DNA of 64,000 bases. It comes from Xenophilus aerolatus. Its GTDB lineage: Bacteria; Pseudomonadota; Gammaproteobacteria; Burkholderiales; Burkholderiaceae_C. This document shows, one piece after another, positions 48,862-64,000 of the stretch. The stretch spans positions 124,001 to 188,000 of the forward strand of contig JASCNX010000006.1 in assembly GCA_029968055.1 (NCBI GenBank), in the 5' to 3' direction. A program made the translations under genes and the position numbers. Position 1 is the stretch's first letter. Each line of letters starts with the position of its first letter. The notes beneath the pieces were generated by a model. It saw only the letters and a program-made list of their open reading frames with translations, searched no databases and had not been told where the DNA came from.

Positions 48862-49224
48862 CGTCGTCTGGTCCCGCCGCCAGGGACCGCAAATTCCTTT
48901 GAAAGCCGCACCAACGCTTGAGTCCCCGGGAGCAGGCTTCATCGGTACCGACGTAAGTACCGACAAAATTGAGGCGTTGGGTTTGTACCACGCACGATGA
49001 AATCTGTCGTATGCCGCCGCATAGCACCACCACAGCTCGGCTGACATCACTAGCCGCCGTCAGTGCCGTTTCGCCACCTCATTCAACCCGGGCGGCATCT
49101 CGGTCTATCCCCTGAAGGAAGCGGCGCTCATGGGCAGGCGACCAGCCCGCCCATGATATTGATGCAGGCTGAGTTCGATGCTCAGCGACGCCATACCGGC
49201 CCGCGTCGTGACGGCACGATGCGG

Positions 49225-51571: not shown

Positions 51572-52455
51572 GCGCCGTCGACTACATCCCCGGCCCCGCT
51601 GACGCGCCGGGGCGCTACTTCGCCTGCGCCCGCCTCTCGGCCACGTTGAGCGTTGGCGGGTGCGCCGCGCAGTGGACTGCCTCCACCCACCGCGACGCGT
51701 CGCCCTGCCGCGGCTGCCCGATCGGCCGCGAGCACTTCGCCCAGCACCACGGGCTGCAGCCGGCCGAGCCGAGCCGCGGGCGCGTCGGCACGTGCTTGAG
51801 ATGCAACGGCGTCGGGCTGCGCCTGATCGGCAGCCGCGGGATCTGCGTCTCCTGCGCGAATCGCACCTACGAAGTGGAGCGCGGCCGCAACGCCAAGGGC
51901 AGCCCGCCGGTCAAGCATGGCCCGCTGCTCACCCTGCACGTCCAAGCCATTGACGCCCATGGCCAGCACGTGCACCACGCTGTCGAGGCCCGGCACGCCG
52001 TCGAGGCCGCGGGCGTGGTCGCGCGCCTGCGCCTTCGCGACGGCGAGCGGCTGGCACCGGGCCGCGCGCATGCCGTGGCGCCGCTGGGCGCCCAGGGTGA
52101 TGGGCTTGGGCTGGTCTGCGCGTCCTGCGGCACGCCGGGCATGTTGGAGCGCGTCGTCAAGGCCAGGATCGAGCACCACTGCCCTGTGTGCCAAGGCGAG
52201 TCCCAGAGCAGCGGATGGCGCGTGGCGCTGGCCCGACTGGTGCTCCCGCTGATGACCGCCGGGGCGGCGCGCACGTGGCTGCAGTTGGTGCCCAGCGAAG
52301 TGCCGCCCGTGGTGCGCGAAGAGGCCGACCGGTGGGCCTACGTCGACCTCGGCTGCGCGACGTGCGGGCGCTGCATTCTGCAGACCCGCCAGGCCCGGCG
52401 CGGCAAAGCTCTGTCCGTGCGCTGTGAGCACTGCGGCGAGCGCGCCGAGGGGTAG
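51568..52455 (+). CDS. Multi-zinc-ribbon protein of unknown function
   Basis: 295 aa from GTG 51568, overlapping the previous stop (GTGA). Contains at least seven CxxC-type pairs: CRGCP, CLRCN, CVSCA, CASCG, CPVC, CATCGRC and CEHCG. The spacing suggests three or four zinc ribbons separated by a helical/beta middle part (LLTLHVQAIDAHGQHVHHAV). Likely nucleic-acid-binding; I do not recognise a family. It belongs to the same rightward unit as the LexA-linked genes. Confidence 0.6.
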   Translation: MSAVDYIPGPADAPGRYFACARLSATLSVGGCAAQWTASTHRDASPCRGCPIGREHFAQHHGLQPAEPSRGRVGTCLRCNGVGLRLIGSRGICVSCANRTYEVERGRNAKGSPPVKHGPLLTLHVQAIDAHGQHVHHAVEARHAVEAAGVVARLRLRDGERLAPGRAHAVAPLGAQGDGLGLVCASCGTPGMLERVVKARIEHHCPVCQGESQSSGWRVALARLVLPLMTAGAARTWLQLVPSEVPPVVREEADRWAYVDLGCATCGRCILQTRQARRGKALSVRCEHCGERAEG

Positions 52456-52695
52456 TCCCGCACCCACACGTGGTAAGCGGCTCGTGCATCGCTGCCGGCT
52501 ACCAGCCGAATCCGCCCCACAAGCATCTGCACGTCGGAGACGCCCACCGGATAGCGCCAGCAACACCCCAAGGAAGTCGGGCCAGGCGCCTGCCACACGC
52601 GCCACGGGACTTGCTTGTCCAACCCGTTGAAGCCGGCGACTCAGCTTTGCCCGACCGCGCCTGGTAAGATCAAATGTTAAGTACGCCTCCTCAGA
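52456..52695. other. Gene-free interval with promoter of the methyltransferase
   Basis: 240 bases. TGGTAAGAT (52662-52670) is an extended -10 motif about 25 bases before the ATG; no good -35. Nothing else recognised. Confidence 0.4.
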
Positions 52696-54285
52696 ATGCC
52701 CATTCCCATCATCGATCTGTTCGCCGGACCTGGCGGCCTTGGCGAGGGCTTCGCCTCTCTGAAGGACGCGAGAGGGGAGCCGGTGTTCCGTCTTCGCGTG
52801 TCGATCGAGAAAGAGGCCAGTGCCCACGCCACTCTGCTGCTGCGGGCGGTCTACCGTCTATTGGACGGCACGCAGGACGAACGTCACTACTACGACTACG
52901 TCACGGGCGCGATCACGGCTGAGCAGTTCCGGGCGATCCCAGCGATCGCGTGGGCATTCAAGGAGGCACGCGACGAGGCTCATCCGTTTGAACTGGGCAA
53001 GACGCCCGAGACAGAAATCGATGAGAAGATCCGGCGTGCGCTCCAGGGCAACACGTCGTGGGTGCTCATTGGCGGCCCGCCCTGTCAGGCTTATTCGCTG
53101 GCTGGCCGCGCCCGGCGCACTAATGACGCCAGCTTCTCGAAGGACGTCAAGCACTTCCTCTATCGCGAGTACCTGCGCATCATCCGGGCGCACCGTCCCG
53201 CGATCTTTGTGATGGAGAACGTCAAGGGGCTACTTTCCTCCAAGCATTCAGGCCGGTCGATGTTCGGCCGCATTTTCGAAGACCTGTCGACGCCTCACGA
53301 CGGAGTCGAATACGAGCTTCGCTCATTCGTGTGCGACGACCAAGGATTGGGCCTCTCACCGCAAGACTACCTGATCGAGTCCGAACGCTTCGGCATCCCA
53401 CAGACACGCCATCGAATCATCCTATTGGGCGTGCGCAAGTCGGGTTCGTTCATCAGGCACGACTTGCTCGAGCCCATGCGCTCGATCGGCGTGCGTGATG
53501 CCATCTGGGATCTCCCGGTCATTCGCAGCCGGATTTCGCGCGGTGACGATTCGCACCAAGCTTGGCACCGCGCCGTGTCCAGTGCGCACAAGGCACTTAA
53601 AGGCTGGCGTTCTGAGCATGCGCGTGGGCTCGCCGAGTCCATGAGGGAAGCCGCCGCCAATGCAGCTTCGGTCTACGGCACCGGCGGCGCCTTCCTGAAA
53701 GCGCCGGCCAGCCGTTCGACTCCGCGCGCTGGCGCGACCGCAACGGCGTATCGCCAGTGGGTGCTACGTCCTAAGGTGGGTGGCGTGCTGCAGCATGAGG
53801 CACGCTCGCACATGGAAGCGGATCTGGCTAGGTACCTGTTTGCGGCCACCTGCGCTAAGGCGACGGGTCATTCCCCGAAGCTCCCCGCCTATCCGCCCCG
53901 TCTCCTGCCGGCGCATCGCAACGCAGGTATCAGTGATGGCGCACCCATCCCCTTCACGGACCGATTTCGGGTGCAATGCAGCGACGACCCGGCATCAACC
54001 ATCGTCTCGCATATCGCGAAGGACGGCCACTACTACATCCACTACGATCCGATGCAGTGCCGCAGCCTCACCGTGCGGGAAGCTGCCCGTCTTCAAACCT
54101 TTCCAGACGACTATTTTTTCGAGGGCAACCGTACCCAGCAATACGTGCAGGTCGGCAACGCCGTCCCGCCGCTGCTGGCCGCTCGCCTAGCGAGGATTGT
54201 CTGGAGGATTGTGGACCAGTCCGCGGGTCAGGGCAGCTCGAGCAGGTCCAGTAGCCGAGTCGCGGGTGAAGCCGCGGTCGTCTGA
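52696..54285 (+). CDS. DNA C5-cytosine methyltransferase (DrmMII-like)
   Basis: 529 aa. Motif I DLFAGPGGLGEGF, catalytic motif IV GGPPCQAYSLAGR, motif VI MENVKGLL, motif VIII QTRHRIILLG, motif IX/X RSLTVREAARLQTFPDDY and QVGNAVPPLLAARL. It transfers methyl to cytosine C5; the target sequence cannot be read from the sequence. Beside Vsr and DrmA/DrmB-like genes it most resembles DISARM class 2's DrmMII. Its 3' end overlaps the convergent vsr by 58 bp. Confidence 0.9.
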   Translation: MPIPIIDLFAGPGGLGEGFASLKDARGEPVFRLRVSIEKEASAHATLLLRAVYRLLDGTQDERHYYDYVTGAITAEQFRAIPAIAWAFKEARDEAHPFELGKTPETEIDEKIRRALQGNTSWVLIGGPPCQAYSLAGRARRTNDASFSKDVKHFLYREYLRIIRAHRPAIFVMENVKGLLSSKHSGRSMFGRIFEDLSTPHDGVEYELRSFVCDDQGLGLSPQDYLIESERFGIPQTRHRIILLGVRKSGSFIRHDLLEPMRSIGVRDAIWDLPVIRSRISRGDDSHQAWHRAVSSAHKALKGWRSEHARGLAESMREAAANAASVYGTGGAFLKAPASRSTPRAGATATAYRQWVLRPKVGGVLQHEARSHMEADLARYLFAATCAKATGHSPKLPAYPPRLLPAHRNAGISDGAPIPFTDRFRVQCSDDPASTIVSHIAKDGHYYIHYDPMQCRSLTVREAARLQTFPDDYFFEGNRTQQYVQVGNAVPPLLAARLARIVWRIVDQSAGQGSSSRSSSRVAGEAAVV

Positions 54286-54701
54286 GCAATCCAAGCCGCT
54301 AGCCTGTCGAATTGACGGATGGCCAGCCCCTCTGGGCCGATCGAGCACTCCCAAACGACTGCAACGCGCCAGCCTAGTTCTTGGAGCCGTCGCACGGCGG
54401 TGGCGTCCCGCTCGACATTGGCCGAGAATTTCGCCGCCCAGACTGCGGCATTGGTCGAAGGCACCGTCGTCATTGGACAGCCAGGGTGCCGGTGCCAGAA
54501 GCAGCCGTGCACGAACAGCGCGACACGATGCTTCGGCAGCACGACATCCGGCGTTCCCGGCAAGTCGCGCCGATGAATCCTGAACCGGTAGCCCGCGAAG
54601 AACAATTGGCGCCGCAACGCCAATTCGGGCCGTGTATTCTTGCCGCGAATGCGCGACATCATCGCGCTGCGTTGGACGGGAGTGACGATATCTGCGCACA
54701 T
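54228..54701 (-). CDS. vsr: Very short patch repair endonuclease (Vsr family)
   Basis: 157 aa from ATG 54701. Vsr motifs: SAMMSRIRGKNTRPELALRRQLF, RRDLPGTPDVVLPKHRVALFVHGCFWHRHPGC (catalytic Asp and zinc Cys/His) and WRVAVVWEC (Glu). Canonical Vsr nicks at G-T mismatches from deaminated 5-methylcytosine. Beside a cytosine methyltransferase it fits repair of its methylation; in a defence locus a nuclease role is also possible. Last gene of a seven-gene cluster. Confidence 0.93.
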   Translation of the reverse strand: MCADIVTPVQRSAMMSRIRGKNTRPELALRRQLFFAGYRFRIHRRDLPGTPDVVLPKHRVALFVHGCFWHRHPGCPMTTVPSTNAAVWAAKFSANVERDATAVRRLQELGWRVAVVWECSIGPEGLAIRQFDRLAAWIAQTTAASPATRLLDLLELP

Positions 54702-54735
54702 TGCAGTGACTCCTGCGGCTTCGGCTGGACTTGGC

Positions 54736-56400
54736 TCAGCCAGCTGGTGGCGGGAGGGACTTCTTCCTCGAACGCGCCGCCGGTTTTGCCGGAAGGCTGA
54801 AAAGGTGGACCGCCTCGTGCAGCGCATCCACAATAACACCGAGTTCCGCCACGGGGGGAAGGGTCGGGAGGTCGCAGCACAGCAGGCGCTGCTTGTTGGC
54901 ATCTACTCGGGGATACCAGAGCCGGCCTCCTCCCTCGAAATTCATCGCGACCTCTTTGCCCGTCCTTGGTTTGCGATCGGCCTCAAGCCTGTAGCGCAGG
55001 ATTGGAAACCGCGCACCGCCGAGGCTGCAGTGAACCACCTCGACACGCTGGTCGCCAGGCAATGTCACCAGCCATGAATACTCGGTTTCGCCCTTGCCAA
55101 CAACTTGGTAGCCTTGACGCTTGAAGTCTGCGCGCCAGTCCAATTCCAGCGGATCGGGCGTCTTCTCCTCCTCCCATTCGATCAGCGGACACCCCGTCAT
55201 CGAGAGGCTAAAGCGCGTGGCGTTATCAGTATCGGCGCAGGACACGGAATGTAACTGCGCGACGTCCTCGCCACCGCTCTGCGAGAGGAACTCTAGCAGC
55301 GCTCCCGCAATGGATGACAACGATGGGGCATGCGGCCCCTTCAACCGCCAAGAAGCGTTGATAAGGCCCTGCTTCAGGCCGACGAGAAATGCAGCGGCCG
55401 ATGCGACCTTGAGGCCGGCCGGCTTTGGCGCAGCCAAAAATGCAGCGAGCGCGGATGGTCCGTCGGCCTGAAGCGCCAGCAGCGCAGCTCTTAGCAGAAC
55501 CGACTTGTCATCGGCGAGCCGATCCCCGTCTAATACCATACGACTGGCCGCCACATCGCGGGCGATCTGGACCCACCTTTCCTCTATCTCCCTACGCTGC
55601 CGGTCATCCTGGGCGCCGGATGCTGCGAACCCCTGCGCCAACGCGTCAATCAATTCCCGCGGCGACGCATCGCGGGCCTGTGCAAAGGTGTGAACGACCG
55701 CGCTGACCAGTGGCACGCCGGCCACCTCCCCCGACCCCGTCAGCGCCGCCAGCGCGCCAGCAAAGTTGAACGCGTCGGCACTGGCCGGATTCGACAAGAA
55801 GCGACCCACTGCGGGAAGGCACGCTGGCTGCAACTCAGTCAATGCCACCATGCAATGAATGCCGGCCACGATGCGATCGACCAAATACCCAGCGCGCAGG
55901 GCATCGGCATCGCGCCGCTCGGCCAGTTCAAATCTCGCCGGCCCCTCCAGACCAAAACAAGCCGATTCGACTTGCCAAGCCAAGCACTCCGGGTCGAACT
56001 CGTCCACAGGCCGCAAGCGGAAGGCATCGGCCTCGTCGTTCGATCTGAACACCAAGCGCTCGATGTCCGCGTAGCCGATGCTATGGCGCGCGCTTGCATC
56101 GATATCGTGGTTCAGTTCCAGCAGCACCGGAAAACGCTCGCTGCGCCCCGCCTCGAGCAGCGCGACTTCGGTCGTTCGCAGGCCAACTTCGACGAGCGCG
56201 ATGTGGCCCGATGCAACGGGCAGCCGCACGCCTTCATCGGGAAAGCTGTCCGAAATGCACAACCCCCCCAGCAGAACCAGCGCATCCTCCCGATTGCAGG
56301 GGAAGAAGCGTCGCGTCCGCTCGGATGCCGGAATGTCCAGTTTGCGCTGCTGCGCGGCCGCCAGAGGCTTCTCCTCGGCCTCCGTGCCGTTTTGCGTCAT
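54736..56400 (-). CDS. Unrecognised protein of the DISARM-like operon
   Basis: 554 aa from ATG 56400, overlapping the stop of the UvrD-like gene (ATGA). Acidic, with no signal peptide or membrane segments. Features: SERTRRFFPCNREDALVLLGGLCISD near residue 30, RREIEERWVQIARDVAASRMVLD in the middle, and a basic end (PAARSRKKSLPPP). No phospholipase D HKD motif, so it is not DrmC. I do not recognise a family. It lies between the UvrD-like gene and vsr, so it belongs to the defence operon by position and overlap. Confidence 0.7.
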   Translation of the reverse strand: MTQNGTEAEEKPLAAAQQRKLDIPASERTRRFFPCNREDALVLLGGLCISDSFPDEGVRLPVASGHIALVEVGLRTTEVALLEAGRSERFPVLLELNHDIDASARHSIGYADIERLVFRSNDEADAFRLRPVDEFDPECLAWQVESACFGLEGPARFELAERRDADALRAGYLVDRIVAGIHCMVALTELQPACLPAVGRFLSNPASADAFNFAGALAALTGSGEVAGVPLVSAVVHTFAQARDASPRELIDALAQGFAASGAQDDRQRREIEERWVQIARDVAASRMVLDGDRLADDKSVLLRAALLALQADGPSALAAFLAAPKPAGLKVASAAAFLVGLKQGLINASWRLKGPHAPSLSSIAGALLEFLSQSGGEDVAQLHSVSCADTDNATRFSLSMTGCPLIEWEEEKTPDPLELDWRADFKRQGYQVVGKGETEYSWLVTLPGDQRVEVVHCSLGGARFPILRYRLEADRKPRTGKEVAMNFEGGGRLWYPRVDANKQRLLCCDLPTLPPVAELGVIVDALHEAVHLFSLPAKPAARSRKKSLPPPAG

Positions 56401-58046
56401 TGCTTTCTCCACCATGCAGAGCGTCTTTGCGAGTACGTGAGGCCCAACGGGCCAAGAAGCGGTTTTAGTTCGGGCCCGCCGCCAACCCAGATGGCGCCGC
56501 CGCGGGCACGATGGTCGTCGAACTGCAGTGACATCCGCATGGCGATGCGCTGCAGTTGCGCGACCCATGCGCCGTCGCCGTCGCCCTCGCCGGCGGCGAC
56601 TGGCGCTGGAATAGGCCGCCCGGCATCGGGCGGTGCGACCTGAGCGTTTCCCTCGGACAACGCTTCGCGTTCCAACACATCGGTTCCGGGCAGCAGCTCG
56701 ACACAAGGTCCCGTGCCAGCGTGCGGCCCCGAGTCGATCAACTGCACACAGTCGCGCGCCCGCGATGTCGCCACGAACATCTGCATGCGGTACCTGTCAG
56801 CTCCGTAGAGCCCGATCTGCGCCTCGTGCGGATCGACGATGAAGGTTGCGTCGAATTCCAGACCCTTGCAGCTCTGCATGTTCAGGACAGTGACCACATC
56901 CGGCGCGTCAAATTGCAGTTTATCCGCGGGGTTCTCTCGCCTAGACTCCCACGAGTAGCTTTGTACCGTGACTAGTCGGCCGAGCTGGTCGCTCAAAGTG
57001 CTATTCAACAGGGCAGTCATCGCGTTGCGCGTTGCCTCGCCGAAGACCAGGACGCCTACTTCCTTGCCAGGATTGTTCGTCAGCCAGATCCGGATGCGCT
57101 GAGCCACTTGAGCCCGATGGGCCACCACGCTGAGAATGGGCCGCTCGCCGGAGCGTGCCGGTAGGTTCGGCATCACACCGACGTCGGCAAAGAAGGAGCG
57201 GGCGAGTTCGGCAATCTCGCGGGTGTTGCGAAAGTTGTCAAGAAGCTGGTAACGGTTGTCAGCCGCAATGCCGAGAGCGGCGGCAATCTCGTCGAGCGTC
57301 GAATTGTTGGCGGTGATCTGCTGGTTCTCGTCGGCCAACACGAAGCAGCGCGGCGGGTGCTTGATGCGCGCTCCACGTGCCGAAGCCACCGCGGACAGCA
57401 TACGTAGCGTCTTGTAGAAACCGGGCGGAAAATCTTGCCCCTCGTCGATGAGGAGTGAGCCAAGCTCCAGCGCCTCGTCGGGAATGCACTCCACGTTCAT
57501 GAGAATGTGATTCGACGCCGCATCCCAGTCCACACCTGAAGTGCTGTCCTGCGCGCGCGGCGGCTCATGCCAGAGCTTCCATGCGGAGAACGCTTCGGGA
57601 TTGGCAAGGTACGCCTGAGCATCAACCATCCAGACGCCCGTTCTCTTCTCCCACGGACGCCATTCTTTCGCGTGCCACTGCGCTCCGGCCTCCTTGGCCG
57701 CCCCCCTCTGTTCATAGGGAACTTCGATCGCTATCCGGTTTGCGTCAGCTGGGTGCGGCGGAAGGCCGCTTTTGCGTTTCCACCAGTCTCCGAACCAAGT
57801 CAGCACCGTCGCGGACGGAATGCGGCTCCCATCTGCCGCGTTGGCGGAATACTTGGCCAGCACCCGATTGAACATGCCGAGCATGACCGGCACCTTGCGC
57901 TTTTCCAGCTCGATGGCCCGCTGGCACGCGATCAGGGTCTTTCCTGTACCGGGCGGCCCGCTCACGAGCACATGCTTGTCGGTGGGCGCGTAGAGGTAGA
58001 CCTGCTTCTGGGCCTCGGTGAACTGCCTAAGCTTCGGCAATCTCAT
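56397..58046 (-). CDS. UvrD/SF1-like ATPase with DUF5710-like insert
   Basis: 549 aa from ATG 58046, overlapping the drmB-like stop (ATGA). Walker A SGPPGTGKTLIACQRA, Walker B LLIDEGQDFPP, sensor-like ADENQQITANNS, C-terminal motif LEFDATFIVDPH and MFVATSRARDCVQL, a shortened SF1 helicase core. Residues about 105-145 (IAIEVPYEQRGAAKEAGAQWHAKEWRPWEKRTGVWMVD) resemble the DUF5710 module (VPF...KD.AK..GA.W....K.WYV). The last 150 residues are Pro/Ala/Gly-rich. Probably a defence helicase or DNA-end processor. Confidence 0.82.
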   Translation of the reverse strand: MRLPKLRQFTEAQKQVYLYAPTDKHVLVSGPPGTGKTLIACQRAIELEKRKVPVMLGMFNRVLAKYSANAADGSRIPSATVLTWFGDWWKRKSGLPPHPADANRIAIEVPYEQRGAAKEAGAQWHAKEWRPWEKRTGVWMVDAQAYLANPEAFSAWKLWHEPPRAQDSTSGVDWDAASNHILMNVECIPDEALELGSLLIDEGQDFPPGFYKTLRMLSAVASARGARIKHPPRCFVLADENQQITANNSTLDEIAAALGIAADNRYQLLDNFRNTREIAELARSFFADVGVMPNLPARSGERPILSVVAHRAQVAQRIRIWLTNNPGKEVGVLVFGEATRNAMTALLNSTLSDQLGRLVTVQSYSWESRRENPADKLQFDAPDVVTVLNMQSCKGLEFDATFIVDPHEAQIGLYGADRYRMQMFVATSRARDCVQLIDSGPHAGTGPCVELLPGTDVLEREALSEGNAQVAPPDAGRPIPAPVAAGEGDGDGAWVAQLQRIAMRMSLQFDDHRARGGAIWVGGGPELKPLLGPLGLTYSQRRSAWWRKQ

Positions 58047-59830
58047 GGCTGCTGCTCCAGATGCCGCAGCAGGCCCCACACGGGGTCGAAGAGCATTCGC
58101 CGGTCCAACAAGGTGTTGGCGGCGATGCAACTGGTCTCCGACACCAAGCTGCACGCGTGGCAGGCGGCGTGGTTGAAGCCCCCCAGCCCCTGCCCCGCCG
58201 TTTCGGAACAGACCGGGTCCGACGAACACCAAGCTCCTTGGTCGATCGCTTCGATCAGCGACTGGGCCAGCCTGTCCTTGCGTCCCTGACGCACCAAGCC
58301 GCCAAGCGATCCTTCAGAATCGCCGTCGGCCGTGTAGATCATGATCGCCGCGTAGCCTTTCTCGGCATTGACGTAGAGGCGCTCCCGCAGCGAAGAGGAT
58401 GAGTACCCGCACTCGAAGGTGATGCGCCGCAGCAGCAGATGTGACAGCGTGTGGACCGCCAGATACACCGCGTCGATCTTCGGGAGAAACCAGAAGTTGT
58501 CGTCCAGCCGCTTGCTCTCCAGCGCCTCGATCGCTGTGCGCTCGGTCGACGGAAGGGCCTGCGCCCAAGCGTGCAGCGCCGGGTAGTCGAGGGCCAACAC
58601 GACGCCTTCGCCGAACACCTCGGCAGCGGGCAGCCAGTTCTCCGAGGCGCCTACATCTGGGCTGACCATCCTGTCTGGTGCGCCGGGCGTCACGCGCTGA
58701 AAGCCTTGGTAGGCCCGGACCTCCCGCAGCCGGCGGACGAGAAGGATGCCCTCGACCATCGCTTTCATCCAGCGCGGCGCGGACGGCGCCAGTTCCTCTG
58801 TGACGGCAGAGAACCCCGCGCTGACCAATCCGCCTCCACGCAAGGCCCCTTCGATCGTCTGCCACTCCTCGTCGAGCAGAACGGCCTGATCGAGCGCCTC
58901 TGAGGTGGCAGCATCGCCCTCCTGCCCCAGCATGCGCCCGCTGATCTCGGCTCGGGCCACCTCTAGGATGTCGGCCGACGAACACCCGATGACTTGGGCC
59001 AGAAGCTCGGCGAAGGTGGCCACAAGGTCCTGCGTGTCGCCTTCAGTGTTGCGCAGGAGATTCAGCACCTTCTGATAGACGGCGTGCTGACGGATCTGCC
59101 CCGCATATTGGGCCGCCGTGCTCTCCACCACAGCCATCGGGATGTCCAGCGCCGAAATCGTCACCGGGTAGTGAAGATTGGTTGCGCCTCTTTGCAGCAC
59201 GACCACGTCAGCATCGCACGACTCCTGTTTGCCGTGGATCCACGGATGCCTGCCGCTGCAGCTTCTGAAGGTCTCCTTGATGATGGTCTTGTTGGAAAGG
59301 TCTTCCAAGCTCCGGGAACTTCCGCACGCGCACTTGACGCGCACCGACGCCAAGCCACCCGTCGCGGCCGTGGGGTCGACGACAAATGAAAGCCGGTCCC
59401 GCGACTTGCACCCTCGGTCGGCCCCGCTTCCGCTGTGAGCCCAGAAGCGCCAGTCGACGTCGTCGAGGTGGCCGTTCTCGCAAGCGCAGACGAATCTCAT
59501 CGAGACCAGCTTGCCGGTACATCCCTTGCTGGGGCATGACGGTTCGCTGTCCTTCTCCTCCAATTCCGTCCGCCAGTGCACCAGTTCGCGACACTTCTCG
59601 CAGAACATCGACCGCGGAAAGCGGCGGACCATCAGCGAAGGCTTTTCCGCCTTGGGCGTCTTGAGGATCTTGCGCAGGCGCGACGAGAGGCGCTGGAGCT
59701 CGATGAGCTTCAACTGAGCCTGCTTCCATTGATCGATGCCGGGGACCAAGAATGACTCTTGCCCTACGTCCACGATGGCGCCTGGACCAGCCACGCCGGC
59801 CACCGCACTCGAACGAATTTCGCGCTTCAT
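58043..59830 (-). CDS. drmB: DrmB-like DUF1998 protein
   Basis: 595 aa from ATG 59830, overlapping drmA by four bases. Zinc-binding Cys pairs: FCEKC, CPSKGC, CACENGH, KCACGSS. The DUF1998 region is in the C-terminal half (SHLLLRRITFECGYSSSSL, then CHACSLVSETSCIAANTLLDRRML, a Cys-rich end). Length and partner fit DISARM DrmB, which forms a complex with the DrmA helicase that loads on DNA. Downstream gene UvrD-like overlaps by four. Confidence 0.88.
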   Translation of the reverse strand: MKREIRSSAVAGVAGPGAIVDVGQESFLVPGIDQWKQAQLKLIELQRLSSRLRKILKTPKAEKPSLMVRRFPRSMFCEKCRELVHWRTELEEKDSEPSCPSKGCTGKLVSMRFVCACENGHLDDVDWRFWAHSGSGADRGCKSRDRLSFVVDPTAATGGLASVRVKCACGSSRSLEDLSNKTIIKETFRSCSGRHPWIHGKQESCDADVVVLQRGATNLHYPVTISALDIPMAVVESTAAQYAGQIRQHAVYQKVLNLLRNTEGDTQDLVATFAELLAQVIGCSSADILEVARAEISGRMLGQEGDAATSEALDQAVLLDEEWQTIEGALRGGGLVSAGFSAVTEELAPSAPRWMKAMVEGILLVRRLREVRAYQGFQRVTPGAPDRMVSPDVGASENWLPAAEVFGEGVVLALDYPALHAWAQALPSTERTAIEALESKRLDDNFWFLPKIDAVYLAVHTLSHLLLRRITFECGYSSSSLRERLYVNAEKGYAAIMIYTADGDSEGSLGGLVRQGRKDRLAQSLIEAIDQGAWCSSDPVCSETAGQGLGGFNHAACHACSLVSETSCIAANTLLDRRMLFDPVWGLLRHLEQQP

Positions 59831-62800
59831 GCCGGCACCCCTGTCTGGACCATCGGTACGAACAATTTCAATGGTGTGTCTACATGCCGCAACGACTGAA
59901 GCGTCTCCCGTCCCTCTCCCTGCTCCCTGTAGGGCTTGATCAGTTGCGCGTGCTGCCTGCCGCCACTCTGGAAGCGAAGATTGGCTCCCTTTGCCCGAGC
60001 CAAGTCCGTCCACTCCCTGATGAACCGGTCGAGATGCTCGCGTGATTCGGCGATGTCACCATCTTCGGCCGCCGCGATGCGCGCAAGAAATGCATCGGCG
60101 AGCCGGCTCACCTCGTCGGATTGCCTGTCGATCTTGGAGGCATGGGTGTTCGCATGCAGGCTGGACACCATGCGCACTAGCACCAGGAAGGCACCGTGCA
60201 GACCGCGGTCCTGCGCCGGCGGCGCAAAGGGGGTCACGCTCGTCGGCTCGACATGGCGGTAGTAGCCCTTGTGGAAGGCACCGAAGAACTCGTAGTGCGA
60301 TCGATCGCGCGGCTTGGTGGGCGAGAAGAGGGCGAACACGATGCCCGGCGGTCGTCTGGCGTCGCGCCCGACGCGACTCGAGGCTTGGATGTACTCCGAC
60401 ACGGTCTTGGGCTGGCCATTGACCAGCATCAACCCCAGCCGCTGTACGTCCACGCCCACCGACAGCATGTTGGTGCAGGCCACGAAATCGAGTGTCGCCT
60501 TGTCCGGCAGGCCGGTAGCGAGTTGGTGCAACGCCTCGGGGATCTCGCTGTCGCGCAGGTTGGCCGAGAGCTCCTTGACGCCCGCCCCTGACATGGACCG
60601 AGGCTCGCCGAGCGCATGCAGCCGCGCCGGGATGTCGTCTCGCGCCAGCGAAAGCGTCTTGCCGAGCTCGCGCTTGCTATTGTGATAGGCCACCAGCGTC
60701 CACCAGGTGTCCGTCAGGTCGCCGATCTTCTTGCGCATGACACCGCCGGCGGCAAGTAGCGCGGTCGAGGCGATCACATTCGAGAAGGTGGGCGTGTGCC
60801 CCTGCCCCATCGCACCGACGTACAGCCGGCCGGCCACTTGCTTCTGCGCCCTGGAGAAAAAGGAGTCGGCGGCATCAAGCCCCGGTGGCGGAAACAGAGC
60901 GGCCTGCCGGCCGTACAGCTTTCGGATCTGGTCGTCGGCACGTCGGATGGTGGCCGTGGCGCAAATGTACTTGGCGCCGCGCCCGAGGCTTGAGATCGCG
61001 GTATCGATGGCCGCCTCGTAGATGCCGGCCAGCGTGCCGAGCGGCCCCGAAATCAGGTGCAGTTCATCCTGGATGATCAGCGAGGGCGGCACCACGTCCA
61101 GGCCCGTGCCGAAGAAAGCACGCGCCTCGTCGCGCCAGGCGAGCATGGCGAACTTGTCGATGGTCCCGAGCAGCATCGTCGGCGGATGGCGATAGAGCTG
61201 CTCGTCGACATAGCTGATAGGCAAGCCGCCGTGAAAGGCGCAATGCGCGTCAGGGCAGAAAAGCTCCAAGCTGCCGCTCACGGCCCGCATGCCCACGCCG
61301 GCCATGCCTTCGTTCTTGCGCGCGGGCACGATGGGAGTGGCACAGACCGGGCACTGCTTAAGCGGCACCTTGACTCCCTCAACCTTCCCGATCGTCGACT
61401 GGATCTTGTCCAAGTCGGCCAAGGCTGACTTGTGTTCGTTGGGCGAGGAGTCCTTTCCCACCCAAAGCCCGAGGCAGAAAGGCGCGTGGCCCGGAAGATG
61501 TCCGGCGCGGCGCAAGGTCTCAAGGGCACAGATGAGCCCGCCGGCACGCTCGAACTGCTGAATCGTCAGCAGCCGCAGCGTGTAACGCTTGATCACCGCG
61601 GTGCCGCCGCCGCGCTTTCCTTCCACGAATCGGCGGCGGAGCATCTCAAAGGCCGCCACGGCTAGGTACGCCTCGGTCTTGCCGCCGCCGGTGGGGAACC
61701 AGATAAGGTCGACGATGGCGCGATCGCGATGATTTGGCTGCCAAAGGCCGCGCAGTGACAGCAGGAAGAACGCCAGCTGGAACGGCCGCCACCGGAAATC
61801 GTTTGGAGGCAGCGCTTGCAGATCGACATCACGCCAGGTCGTGCCTTCCGCCCGGCCGCGATTGGCTGACGCGCGCGCGACGCTCAGGAGCATGGCCCGA
61901 TTGGCCAATCGAAAGATGTCCAATGCCGCCGGCTCCGTCGCCAGCAGTCGCGCACCGTCCTTCATGCGCTCGACGGCCGCGTCGATGCGGTCGAGCACCC
62001 GCGCCCGCGGCGGGTCGAACCGGGCGGGCAGCGTGACTGATGCGAGGCGGTCGCGCCACTGCACGTAAGCGTCGATGAAAGCCGCGAAAGCAGGTGCGGG
62101 GTCGAAGGCTGCATCCTGCAGGCGGAAGATCGACAAGGCTCTCTGCACGGACACCGGCAGAGAGTCAATGTCGGTCGTCACGGGCGGCACCTCGACCGTG
62201 GGCATGAAGTCCACCGCTACGTCTTCAACTTGGCCCAACACCGGGTCCGACCAAGCCACTCCGCAACCGTGGCCGACGGCAAAGGTCGGCATCGAGCGGT
62301 ATTGCAGCGCCAGTTCCTCCGCCTCTTCATCCTCGCTGATGGTCGGCGGGTCGGGATATGAGGGCACGCCCAGATCCGGGCGGCATTTCATGCGTACTTG
62401 GAAGAGGATGTCCGTCACCTCGACCGGTGCATCCTCTGCCGTCTTCCGCTCATTGACCAGCGAAACGGTGGCGATACGCACGCCCTGCGCCCGGCGGATG
62501 AACAGATGCACGCTGGCGCGCCCGCCGAAGACCTCAGTCGACTGTCGCCCCTCTTGACGCACATCGAAAGTGACGGCGAGTTCCGCGTCTGACTCGACCA
62601 GCGGACGCCGCTGCCACACCTGCGGGCTTCGGCCGCGGCCCGGCCCCGCGCCGCCCGCATCCGCCGCCGGTGCGGCCACCAGCTCCGCGCTGGAGCGCTC
62701 GTAGCGCGCACCAGCGACTTGGACGACGATTCGTTCTTCAGCCTCAGCAATCGCAAAGGTGAGCCCGACCGATGCAGGAAGCTTTTGAAAGACCATGTCC

Positions 62801-63033
62801 ATTGGCGATTCGAGCTCTTCCTGCTCGTCGCCGTCCGCCAAGTCCTCGGCGAACTCCTGTTCATCGGCCGTTGCCCTGCCACTACTTGCACCCTTCGGAA
62901 AGATCATTCCGGTCAGGTAGCGCTTATTGGGCTTCTCCCTCATGGACTCGTCGATCGTGCCAGGGCCGATCAGGCGCCACCGCACTTCCTTCAAGAACTC
63001 CCGCCTCAGTTGCTGATTTTCATCGTTGCTCAT
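59827..63033 (-). CDS. drmA: DrmA-like SF2 helicase (DISARM core)
   Basis: 1068 aa from ATG 63033, with GAGGAG upstream. N-terminal 350 residues of unknown fold, then helicase: Walker A FPTGGGKTEAYL, DExH motif IIQDELHLISGP, motif III CATATIRR, motif VI QASSRVGRDARRPPG. The DELHLISG box is typical of DrmA/Druantia-type helicases. Length fits DISARM DrmA. Four-base overlap with drmB and 14-base overlap with the preceding ATPase gene. Confidence 0.9.
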   Translation of the reverse strand: MSNDENQQLRREFLKEVRWRLIGPGTIDESMREKPNKRYLTGMIFPKGASSGRATADEQEFAEDLADGDEQEELESPMDMVFQKLPASVGLTFAIAEAEERIVVQVAGARYERSSAELVAAPAADAGGAGPGRGRSPQVWQRRPLVESDAELAVTFDVRQEGRQSTEVFGGRASVHLFIRRAQGVRIATVSLVNERKTAEDAPVEVTDILFQVRMKCRPDLGVPSYPDPPTISEDEEAEELALQYRSMPTFAVGHGCGVAWSDPVLGQVEDVAVDFMPTVEVPPVTTDIDSLPVSVQRALSIFRLQDAAFDPAPAFAAFIDAYVQWRDRLASVTLPARFDPPRARVLDRIDAAVERMKDGARLLATEPAALDIFRLANRAMLLSVARASANRGRAEGTTWRDVDLQALPPNDFRWRPFQLAFFLLSLRGLWQPNHRDRAIVDLIWFPTGGGKTEAYLAVAAFEMLRRRFVEGKRGGGTAVIKRYTLRLLTIQQFERAGGLICALETLRRAGHLPGHAPFCLGLWVGKDSSPNEHKSALADLDKIQSTIGKVEGVKVPLKQCPVCATPIVPARKNEGMAGVGMRAVSGSLELFCPDAHCAFHGGLPISYVDEQLYRHPPTMLLGTIDKFAMLAWRDEARAFFGTGLDVVPPSLIIQDELHLISGPLGTLAGIYEAAIDTAISSLGRGAKYICATATIRRADDQIRKLYGRQAALFPPPGLDAADSFFSRAQKQVAGRLYVGAMGQGHTPTFSNVIASTALLAAGGVMRKKIGDLTDTWWTLVAYHNSKRELGKTLSLARDDIPARLHALGEPRSMSGAGVKELSANLRDSEIPEALHQLATGLPDKATLDFVACTNMLSVGVDVQRLGLMLVNGQPKTVSEYIQASSRVGRDARRPPGIVFALFSPTKPRDRSHYEFFGAFHKGYYRHVEPTSVTPFAPPAQDRGLHGAFLVLVRMVSSLHANTHASKIDRQSDEVSRLADAFLARIAAAEDGDIAESREHLDRFIREWTDLARAKGANLRFQSGGRQHAQLIKPYREQGEGRETLQSLRHVDTPLKLFVPMVQTGVPA

Positions 63034-64000
63034 CTTCTCCTCGCTTTTGTTCGAAAGATACCTTGGCCAAAGTCTCGAGAAACTCGCGGAAAGACGGTTG
63101 CACCGGCAGAAAGAGCGACGCACCGGCTCGCGACATACCCATATAAAGTAGCGACTCGCCCAGCCTTCCCGCCGGCAGCCGATCCAGATCGACCAGCATC
63201 ACCACACGCGCCTCCATGCCTCGGAAGTCCCGAATGCCCGCGACGATGCCGTGGCTGTACGAGCGCACCTGCCCGTCGGGATACAGAGGCAGGCAGGCAT
63301 GATCGAGGAGGCGCGCTAGCCGCCTGCATACCGGCCCCCGAATGCCGTCCGCCCCTAAGATGGCAATCTCGAACGGCTGGATACCATCGTTTAAGGCGTC
63401 AGACACGCGAGAGCACACGGCCGCGACCTCTTCGTCGAAGTCCGGCACCAACCGCAACCCTACCTTGACACCGAACCCGTCGACCTGCGAGGTTCCAATG
63501 TCGGCATCCAAGAAAGTCTGGATCACGCTTACGATCTCACGAGTCGAGCGGACGTTTCGGCGAAGCGCAACCTGGACGGCGTGCTGGGCCAGCAAATGCA
63601 GCGCGCCAGGGTCGGGAGGATCCGTCAAGAACTGCAGGTTCGGATCCATGAACCAGCGCCAGCGGCCTGCCGCCAAGCCACCTGGGAGCTGACGGAATAG
63701 CTGCTCCATGCGTGCCGGCTGTGCTTGGTCCTGCCCTTCGTCAACGATCAGGACGTCCGTCCCAGGCGGCAGCGCGCCGGACACGACCTGAATACCACGA
63801 AGCCCTACCCTTGCCCGCAGCGCCGCAGCAAACGGCGTCTCGCTGGTGAAAATCGCAGGTCTTCGGCCAACCGCCTGTTCTGCAATAGCACACAAGACGG
63901 CGAGCTCGGACTTTCCAGTACCTGCCCCGCCGGTGATGCAGAGGCGAGCACTGGACTCCAGGCTCTCCAAGATGGCGAATTGCTGGCCCGTTAGCCTGAA
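63020..64000 (-). CDS. P-loop/UvrD-like ATPase of the defence operon (5' truncated by window edge)
   Basis: The frame is open to the edge of the window and continues to the right (FRLTGQQFAILESL at the edge), so the N-terminal domain is outside. Visible: Walker A CITGGAGTGKSELAVLCA, Walker B DVLIVDEGQDQAQP, and C-terminal motifs FRGMEARVVMLVD and YMGMSRAGASLFLPVQP typical of SF1/UvrD-like or NERD-helicase proteins. Its 3' end overlaps drmA's start by 14 bases. The missing N-terminus could include a nuclease (NERD) domain; unconfirmed. Confidence 0.82.
   Translation of the reverse strand, partial: FRLTGQQFAILESLESSARLCITGGAGTGKSELAVLCAIAEQAVGRRPAIFTSETPFAAALRARVGLRGIQVVSGALPPGTDVLIVDEGQDQAQPARMEQLFRQLPGGLAAGRWRWFMDPNLQFLTDPPDPGALHLLAQHAVQVALRRNVRSTREIVSVIQTFLDADIGTSQVDGFGVKVGLRLVPDFDEEVAAVCSRVSDALNDGIQPFEIAILGADGIRGPVCRRLARLLDHACLPLYPDGQVRSYSHGIVAGIRDFRGMEARVVMLVDLDRLPAGRLGESLLYMGMSRAGASLFLPVQPSFREFLETLAKVSFEQKRGEDEQR

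Follow-up and report, generated by a model that had tools for sequence, protein, structure and literature searches.

The 64,000-nucleotide stretch analysed here (the window; bases 124001-188000 of contig JASCNX010000006.1, abbreviated C6, in the 5.1-Mb genome of Xenophilus aerolatus) carries an operon built around the genes of a DrmA-like helicase and a DrmB-like protein of DISARM type. We conclude that this operon is a new DISARM-related variant with a predicted subunit of ADP-ribosyl type, and we infer a role in defence, probably against phages. In our judgement, there is a little better than an even chance that it encodes a DISARM-related defence system that lacks DrmC, was acquired horizontally and works by the mechanism proposed below. 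The operon is conserved and recurs across phyla, and the findings together suggest a branch of a known immune system that is not described in the literature searched.

The genes are ordered as a NERD nuclease-ATPase fusion, DrmA, DrmB, a UvrD-like ATPase with a DUF5710-like insert and a protein of 554 amino acids (aa), and they overlap successively by 14, 4, 4 and 4 bases (Table 1). DrmB is a separate gene after DrmA and scores above the DrmB_fam cut-off, and DrmA itself is recognised by PADLOC but stays below the NCBIfam DISARM_DrmAS equivalog cut-off of 950 bits. The UvrD-like ATPase has both Walker A and Walker B, and its matches to Pfam DUF5710 and UvrD_C_2 are each slightly below the Pfam cut-offs. 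The vsr gene, transcribed in the same direction, lies 34 bases after the 554-aa gene and overlaps tail to tail with a C5-cytosine methyltransferase gene, which is convergent to the operon and has DrmMII as its best PADLOC match. Gene models and profiles bear out the gene set and coordinates of the original prediction (methyltransferase, convergent vsr and minus-strand operon) and also its junction overlaps of 4 or 14 bases. Its description of the first gene as a P-loop/UvrD-like ATPase was right about the ATPase but incomplete, since the protein starts with an N-terminal NERD domain, encoded beyond base 64000 and hence outside the window, which is followed by a UvrD-like P-loop ATPase.

To survey related loci, we searched plasmids with DrmB by tblastn (62 records) and scanned genomes, one per species, with a C-terminal DrmA stretch around VEPTSVTP, which gave 143 stretches and 133 relatives, of which the best 80 were examined. 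In the four best plasmid records, a UvrD-like ATPase gene directly follows DrmB; D. gobiensis plasmid P4 has the complete five-gene order, and the hypothetical proteins that end three of these operons could be aligned to the 554-aa protein by hhalign (E 7e-6, probability 84). Note that the scanned motif is not exclusive: VEPTS(V/I)TP was read in 65 of the 84 members of the group defined here and in three of 28 DrmA outside it, and the four more distant DrmA aligned at that stage have VEATSVTP instead. The group of 84 consists of 78 of the best 80 genome relatives, the window, four plasmid loci (L006-L009) and a viral contig (L021); the counts exclude L104, which is outside the group in the tree, and L076, which duplicates the L075 locus on the same contig. 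A tree of 110 DrmA, from which L032, L076, L027 and L030 were omitted as duplicates or as shorter than 700 aa, placed the window in an 89-member clade (support 1.0) that includes none of the eight loci with DrmC.

Gene content was called by profiles built from these loci, and the denominators vary because loci too short on one side were dropped from single counts; L075 was counted as having DrmB and the 554-aa gene, although both are split into several frames. DrmB follows DrmA in all 81 loci, and in 76 of 80 DrmB is in turn followed by a UvrD-like gene. The four loci without it form one subclade and have an upstream helicase-type frame of 1551-1601 aa. A NERD-ATPase precedes DrmA in 40 of 81 loci, the 554-aa family is present in 20 of 78, and all five genes occur together in 13 of 77. 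By record titles and annotation, the five-gene form is found in Pseudomonas, several actinomycete genera, Deinococcus, and metagenome-assembled genomes of Rubritalea and Planctomycetota.

No DrmC was detected at any of the 84 group loci with a profile built from eight DrmC sequences (E 1e-4). These came from the only eight of all 112 loci that have the gene, none of them in the 89-member clade. A DrmC query against the whole X. aerolatus genome gave just three weak matches (20-24 bits), all to longer frames on other contigs, and the sequence read past base 64000 contained no drmC, a gene whose presence there would have counted against the original prediction. Neither DrmD nor DrmE was among the PADLOC matches listed for the seven proteins scanned (for the methyltransferase, 25 of 57 families). 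A tentative DrmE query, an 801-aa gene of locus L113, had no match in the X. aerolatus genome; this gene is itself not recognised by PADLOC, and L113 was therefore rejected as a verified class 2 DISARM. The proposal of a DISARM variant or sibling system that lacks DrmC and has no recognised DrmD or DrmE stands, and its accessory ATPases are linked to the operon rather than passengers. In DISARM, DrmC is reported to be dispensable and often missing (PMC9142583, available part), and the 84 loci at which no DrmC was found offer concrete candidate genes for the nuclease step.

The original prediction had looked to Vsr or the ATPases for the nuclease; the Vsr half is not upheld (see below), and the nuclease candidate is the NERD domain. 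Judged from its sequence, the NERD-ATPase is the best candidate for the missing nuclease. The motif E.DF...E(V/I)KG, Walker A and Walker B are present in all 41 NERD-ATPases of the group, and when 16 NERD-ATPases, including two from another branch, are aligned, 33 columns are invariant. Roughly half of the group has no NERD-ATPase visible at the operon. The UvrD-like ATPase, which stands at the place of DrmC in 76 of 80 loci, is therefore the steadier partner; host nucleases may serve at the loci that show no NERD-ATPase. Patterns taken from the UvrD-like alignment were too general for a scan of the collection (600 stretches, no relative). On plasmids, the linkage of the UvrD-like gene to drmAB held for four of the seven matching records, including those that rank highest by score or by identity over length, while the other three were not traced to a DrmAB locus. 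In another DrmA branch (L010, L011, L013 and L015), the gene before DrmA encodes a UvrD-type helicase and the one after DrmB a NERD-ATPase. An arrangement with one ATPase of each type on either side of DrmAB may therefore have originated more than once among the lineages that lack DrmC.

The 554-aa protein had been described as belonging to no known family, and in fact it had no family match in Pfam (E up to 1), PADLOC, NCBIfam or PHROGs (E up to 0.01), although it can now be described by its predicted fold. With the single sequence as query, only its own copy was found in 398 genomes of the phylum and 399 of the family, and no relative was found in plasmids or viral contigs. A 17-member profile detected exactly one copy in 15 of 20 group genomes, at the DrmAB locus by coordinates, and matched in two of 398 Pseudomonadota and three of 296 Actinomycetota genomes. 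Note that the genome searches scored only a few candidates per genome (three to five in those of the 398, 399 and 296 genomes), so that copies can be missed. Four of the five matches are full-length (the own copy, G216, G805 and G901) and each ends a DrmA-DrmB-UvrD operon, that of G901 having all five genes and Vsr; thus, every full-length relative in the whole genomes searched ends such an operon. The fifth (G1053; 86 aligned positions, E 1.5e-4), around which 19.9 kb were read without meeting any of the other genes, was taken as a chance match; if real, it would count against the rule that the gene is always beside DrmAB. Apart from this weak partial match, the 554-aa gene was not found away from drmAB, in agreement with the original prediction. 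The family is poorly conserved: at 85% identity its alignment (19 sequences) has six columns, compared with 21 for the UvrD-like ATPase, 42 for the NERD-ATPase (13 sequences), 141 for DrmB and 277 for DrmA from the same loci.

Structure models suggest that the 554-aa protein has a DarT-like ADP-ribosyltransferase fold at its N-terminus and an ADP-ribosylhydrolase (ARH)/DraG-like fold in the middle. An AlphaFold2 model of the window protein was made from 17 sequences (mean predicted local distance difference test score, pLDDT, 71; predicted template modelling score, pTM, 0.63), and a second one was made for the relative at L048, which is 17% identical, from the same sequences in another order (pLDDT 79, pTM 0.71). 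In the window model, residues about 24-150 resemble four DarT entries (Z 8.0-8.5, 121-125 residues aligned, root mean square deviation (rmsd) 3.7-4.6), with an unrelated mitoribosomal entry at 8.1. Residues 172-373 resemble ARH3-type proteins (Z 10.2-11.0) and the immunity protein of an ADP-ribosyltransferase toxin pair (Z 8.3), and residues 421-538 resemble secretion-chaperone/YbjN-like folds (Z 3.8-6.3), a match not seen with the L048 model. The L048 model resembles DarT at Z 10.3-11.6 (131-141 aligned, rmsd 3.0-3.6), followed by Tpt1, of ADP-ribosyltransferase fold, at 8.1-8.7, and it resembles ARH3, ARH1, DraG and an ADP-ribosyltransferase (ART)-ARH pair at Z 14.4 to 9.7, where entries of other names (8xks, 8xqw and 6sga) also appear at Z 12.8, 12.3 and 10.9. 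In Foldseek, the seven best matches of the L048 model were DarT (probability 1.00), with E from 2e-3 to 8e-2 and none below 1e-3; the window model likewise had nothing below E 1e-3, DarT being ranked 14th and 20th, and the viral structure library gave no match under that value. 2CompART was the only Pfam family matched by two of the 17 members, below its cut-off (E 0.009 and 0.011) and in the N-terminal region.

Sequence-based searches did not place the protein within either enzyme family. The DarT family PF14487 matched neither the window protein nor, at E 10, any of the 17 members, and a search of the X. aerolatus genome with it was empty; ADP-ribosylglycohydrolase (PF03747) also had no match in the 17 members. 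By eye, the HFT motif of DarT was not seen and the metal-binding DD and DTD motifs of ARH were not conserved. When PDB sequences were searched with the family profile, a single chain matched (E 0.56). None of the candidate catalytic residues is conserved in the whole family; 15 of 19 sequences have the glutamate on the candidate strand, and four lack it. Since the profiles of these families do not match, membership of the protein in DarT or ARH was rejected; we read it instead as a fast-evolving subunit of putative ADP-ribosyl-enzyme descent, whose activity is likewise putative.

DrmAB binds single-stranded DNA (ssDNA) and 5' overhangs and requires its ATPase (PMC9142583, available part). Following this published DISARM work, DrmA-DrmB would be an ssDNA-loaded motor that engages unmodified phage DNA, and the steps after its binding are those that we infer. 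The methyltransferase would mark host DNA, and Vsr would repair the T:G mismatches arising from 5-methylcytosine; the UvrD-like ATPase and the NERD nuclease-helicase would process and cut the engaged DNA in place of the DrmC nuclease. The 554-aa protein would be a sensor or regulator that binds DNA ends or ligands of the NAD+/ADP-ribose type, rather than a constitutive enzyme. Several observations, however, count against this picture. The NERD-ATPase cannot be the only nuclease in the group, as none was found at 41 of 81 loci, and among 77 UvrD-like members the Walker A pattern fails in 15 and the Walker B pattern in 20. The 554-aa gene was not found at 58 of 78 loci, and a C5 methyltransferase was within the fetched flanks of only 21 of 84. 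The node uniting exactly the 84 DrmA, apart from five others of the 89-member clade, has a support of only 0.17. Because DrmC is often missing in DISARM, its absence alone is weak evidence for a replacement. As for the folds, the two models share the same sequences and hence are not independent, helical folds can reach the Z values of the ARH matches without kinship (fold mimicry), and hhalign of the three 554-aa domains against DarT, ARH and seven control alignments gave no link. The best of these 27 comparisons was the middle domain against ARH (P 0.07), for which the ARH alignment held only eight partly fragmentary sequences.

Vsr itself as the nuclease of the system is very improbable. It occurs within the fetched flanks of 12 of the 84 group loci, the window included, and Vsr-type domains are fused to a helicase in ARMADA (PMC12458937, available part); however, 11 of these 12 loci also have a C5 methyltransferase, as have 17 of the 19 loci with Vsr among all 112, and Vsr occurs together with DrmC at three loci outside the group. 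Vsr therefore goes with the methyltransferase, and its pattern is that of a repair partner of the methylase rather than of a DrmC substitute, so that it was rejected as the system nuclease. A stand-alone Vsr beside a cytosine methylase is an ordinary repair arrangement. We consider it rather improbable that the operon is an ordinary DISARM served by a host phospholipase D (PLD) nuclease in trans, the extra genes being passengers of a defence island. Host PLD nucleases have been proposed to step in where DrmC is missing (PMC9142583, available part), and the three weak matches elsewhere in the X. aerolatus genome are of PLD type; yet the UvrD-like gene regularly follows DrmB, and no full-length relative of the 554-aa protein was found away from it in the genomes searched. 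A function in DNA repair or mobile-DNA control, like that of MrfAB-type YprA helicases, is also quite unlikely: although the YprA family includes repair enzymes (PMC12458937, available part), the probable island here, the plasmids in several relatives, the linked methyltransferase, the patchy distribution and the DISARM-type profile matches speak against it.

The 554-aa protein could also be an active effector, so that DrmAB unwinds phage DNA, the DarT-like domain ADP-ribosylates the exposed ssDNA and the ARH-like domain restrains it, as DarG does DarT. Such a reading, unlikely as we hold it to be, agrees with the DarT rank in Foldseek for L048 and with the N-terminal position of the sub-threshold 2CompART matches, and DarT ADP-ribosylates viral DNA (LeRoux et al., as cited in the available part of PMC9503650). 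Moreover, a true DarT (PF14487; L013:12514-13116) starts 113 bases behind the NERD gene of an Azospirillum UvrD/DrmA/DrmB/NERD operon. Against it are the Foldseek E values and the low DarT rank of the window model, the six conserved columns, the candidate glutamate missing in four sequences, the unseen HFT motif and the lack of a sequence link in hhalign. A DISARM-related complex with a fused ADP-ribosyltransferase-hydrolase subunit, in which DrmAB and superfamily 1 (SF1) helicases would open phage DNA ends, the DarT-like domain would modify ssDNA (or sense NAD+ or ADP-ribose) and NERD would destroy the DNA, is doubtful to the same degree. If true, it would be a DISARM class of its own that links DISARM helicases to ADP-ribosylation of nucleic acids, of which we found no description in the literature searched; DNA engagement by DrmAB and DNA ADP-ribosylation, which an active 554-aa fold would join, were not found joined there.

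The DISARM-related system proposed here resembles DISARM (classes 1 and 2; drmA, drmB, drmC, a methyltransferase and drmD or drmE) in its separate DrmA and DrmB genes in one operon and in the nearby DrmMII-like C5 methyltransferase, but differs in that no DrmC was found, no DrmD or DrmE was recognised, DrmA is under the equivalog cut-off, and the recurring partners are the NERD-ATPase, the UvrD-like ATPase and the 554-aa protein. A study of the YprA family describes ARMADA, BRIGADE and TALON, and states that DISARM typically includes DrmC; its available part does not describe the present operon (PMC12458937). ARMADA shares a YprA-family helicase, an SF1 (GajB-like) helicase gene and a Vsr-type nuclease, but its Vsr is fused to the helicase and accompanied by BrxHII-like and PglX-like genes (PMC12458937, available part), whereas here DrmA and DrmB are split and vsr stands alone; the only BrxHII match among the operon proteins was one of 13 bits to DrmA itself (PADLOC). 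TALON shares a YprA-family helicase and a NERD-type nuclease, but has TPR-CSD and TBP genes (PMC12458937, available part), neither of which was among the Pfam matches of the seven proteins scanned. Shield-type ShdA in DISARM-like Pseudomonas operons is a different accessory (PMC10270631, available part). The predicted order of a DarT-like and an ARH/DraG-like fold in one 554-aa protein recalls DarTG and ART-ARH toxin-immunity pairs, although here a single chain lies inside a DrmAB operon, without a DarT or ADP_ribosyl_GH profile match and with unconserved candidate active sites. DarG uses a macro domain. The UvrD/DrmA/DrmB/NERD operons of Rhizobium, Azospirillum and a viral contig (L010, L011, L013 and L015) likewise have DrmAB flanked by a UvrD-type helicase and a NERD-ATPase, with no DrmC found, but in reverse order, on another DrmA branch and with no 554-aa gene found. 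No description of a DrmAB-UvrD-554 or DrmAB-ADP-ribosyl system was found in the literature searched, which covered little of the subscription journals.

The system is probably carried on a 35.8-kb tRNA-Arg island. The 18-bp repeat within the window is identical to the tRNA-Arg 3' end located 35.8 kb away, and an integrase-like frame (L004:17246-18448), recognised by eye, is beside that tRNA end. The G+C content is 0.637 at window positions 52696-64000 and 0.651 and 0.627 in two stretches further in, compared with 0.708 at positions 1-48000. Among 30 relatives, a full-length DrmA match was found in the X. aerolatus genome only, with a distant relative in one other.

Table 1. Features of the operon, its neighbours and the probable island boundary (window positions; window 63020-64615 equals L003:13020-14615)
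Feature	Position	Strand	Evidence
18-bp direct repeat of tRNA-Arg 3' end, probable far attachment site	48867..48884	+	identical 18 bases at C6:208624-208641
C5-cytosine DNA methyltransferase, DrmMII-like, 529 aa	52696..54285	+	Pfam DNA_methylase E 9.6e-42; PADLOC DrmMII 308 bits
vsr, very short patch repair endonuclease, 157 aa	54228..54701	-	NCBIfam vsr 136.5 bits, cut-off 97.85
554-aa protein gene	54736..56400	-	no family match; AlphaFold2 model
UvrD-like ATPase with DUF5710-like insert, 549 aa	56397..58046	-	Pfam and PADLOC matches
DrmB-like DUF1998/MZB protein, 595 aa	58043..59830	-	NCBIfam DrmB_fam 404 bits, cut-off 240
DrmA-like superfamily 2 helicase, 1068 aa	59827..63033	-	PADLOC DrmA 644 bits; NCBIfam DISARM_DrmAS 840 bits
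NERD nuclease-ATPase fusion, 531 aa	63020..64000, start at window 64615 (C6:188615; L003:13020-14615)	-	Pfam NERD E 2.9e-8

On either side of the defence operon, at window positions 51957-52470 and 65219-65654 (L003:1957-2470 and L003:15219-15654), lie three blocks of direct repeats (218, 117 and 88 nt; 85-99% identical), spaced by about 13.2 kb.

A sigma-70-like protein adjoins the operon in 63 of the 84 group loci, mostly in actinomycetes and often divergently (loci L034-L112, beside DrmA or the NERD-ATPase; for example L038:1937-5776, L042:5860-7248 and L007:1923-5744). Its length is about 450 aa or, where a long additional C-terminal part is present, about 1200 aa, and the four neighbours scanned contain Pfam sigma-70 regions 2, 3 and 4; it is possibly a dedicated sigma factor for the defence operon. 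A test for fusion between the 554-aa family and the C-terminal region of the long sigma-like protein of Streptomyces gave no support. A contig of Veronia nyctiphanis has two DrmAB-UvrD-554 copies (L075 and L076) 23.8 kb apart whose frames are arranged alike, DrmB and the 554-aa gene being split in both, which reflects either a duplication or an assembly artefact. Type II restriction enzymes are near several DrmAB loci, namely EcoRII-C by Pfam (L036:2972-4249), a gene of the same cluster (L110:15432-16652) and, by annotation, NaeI and MvaI/BcnI (L118:10877-11794 and L009:15814-16586). Other DrmAB operons have further accessory genes, which encode a 507-aa protein without a Pfam family in Rhodococcus (L118:1159-2682), a RelA/SpoT-domain protein in Tsukamurella (L115:1502-2896) and a DUF2357-PDDEXK_7 protein in Rhizobium (L010:1405-3084).

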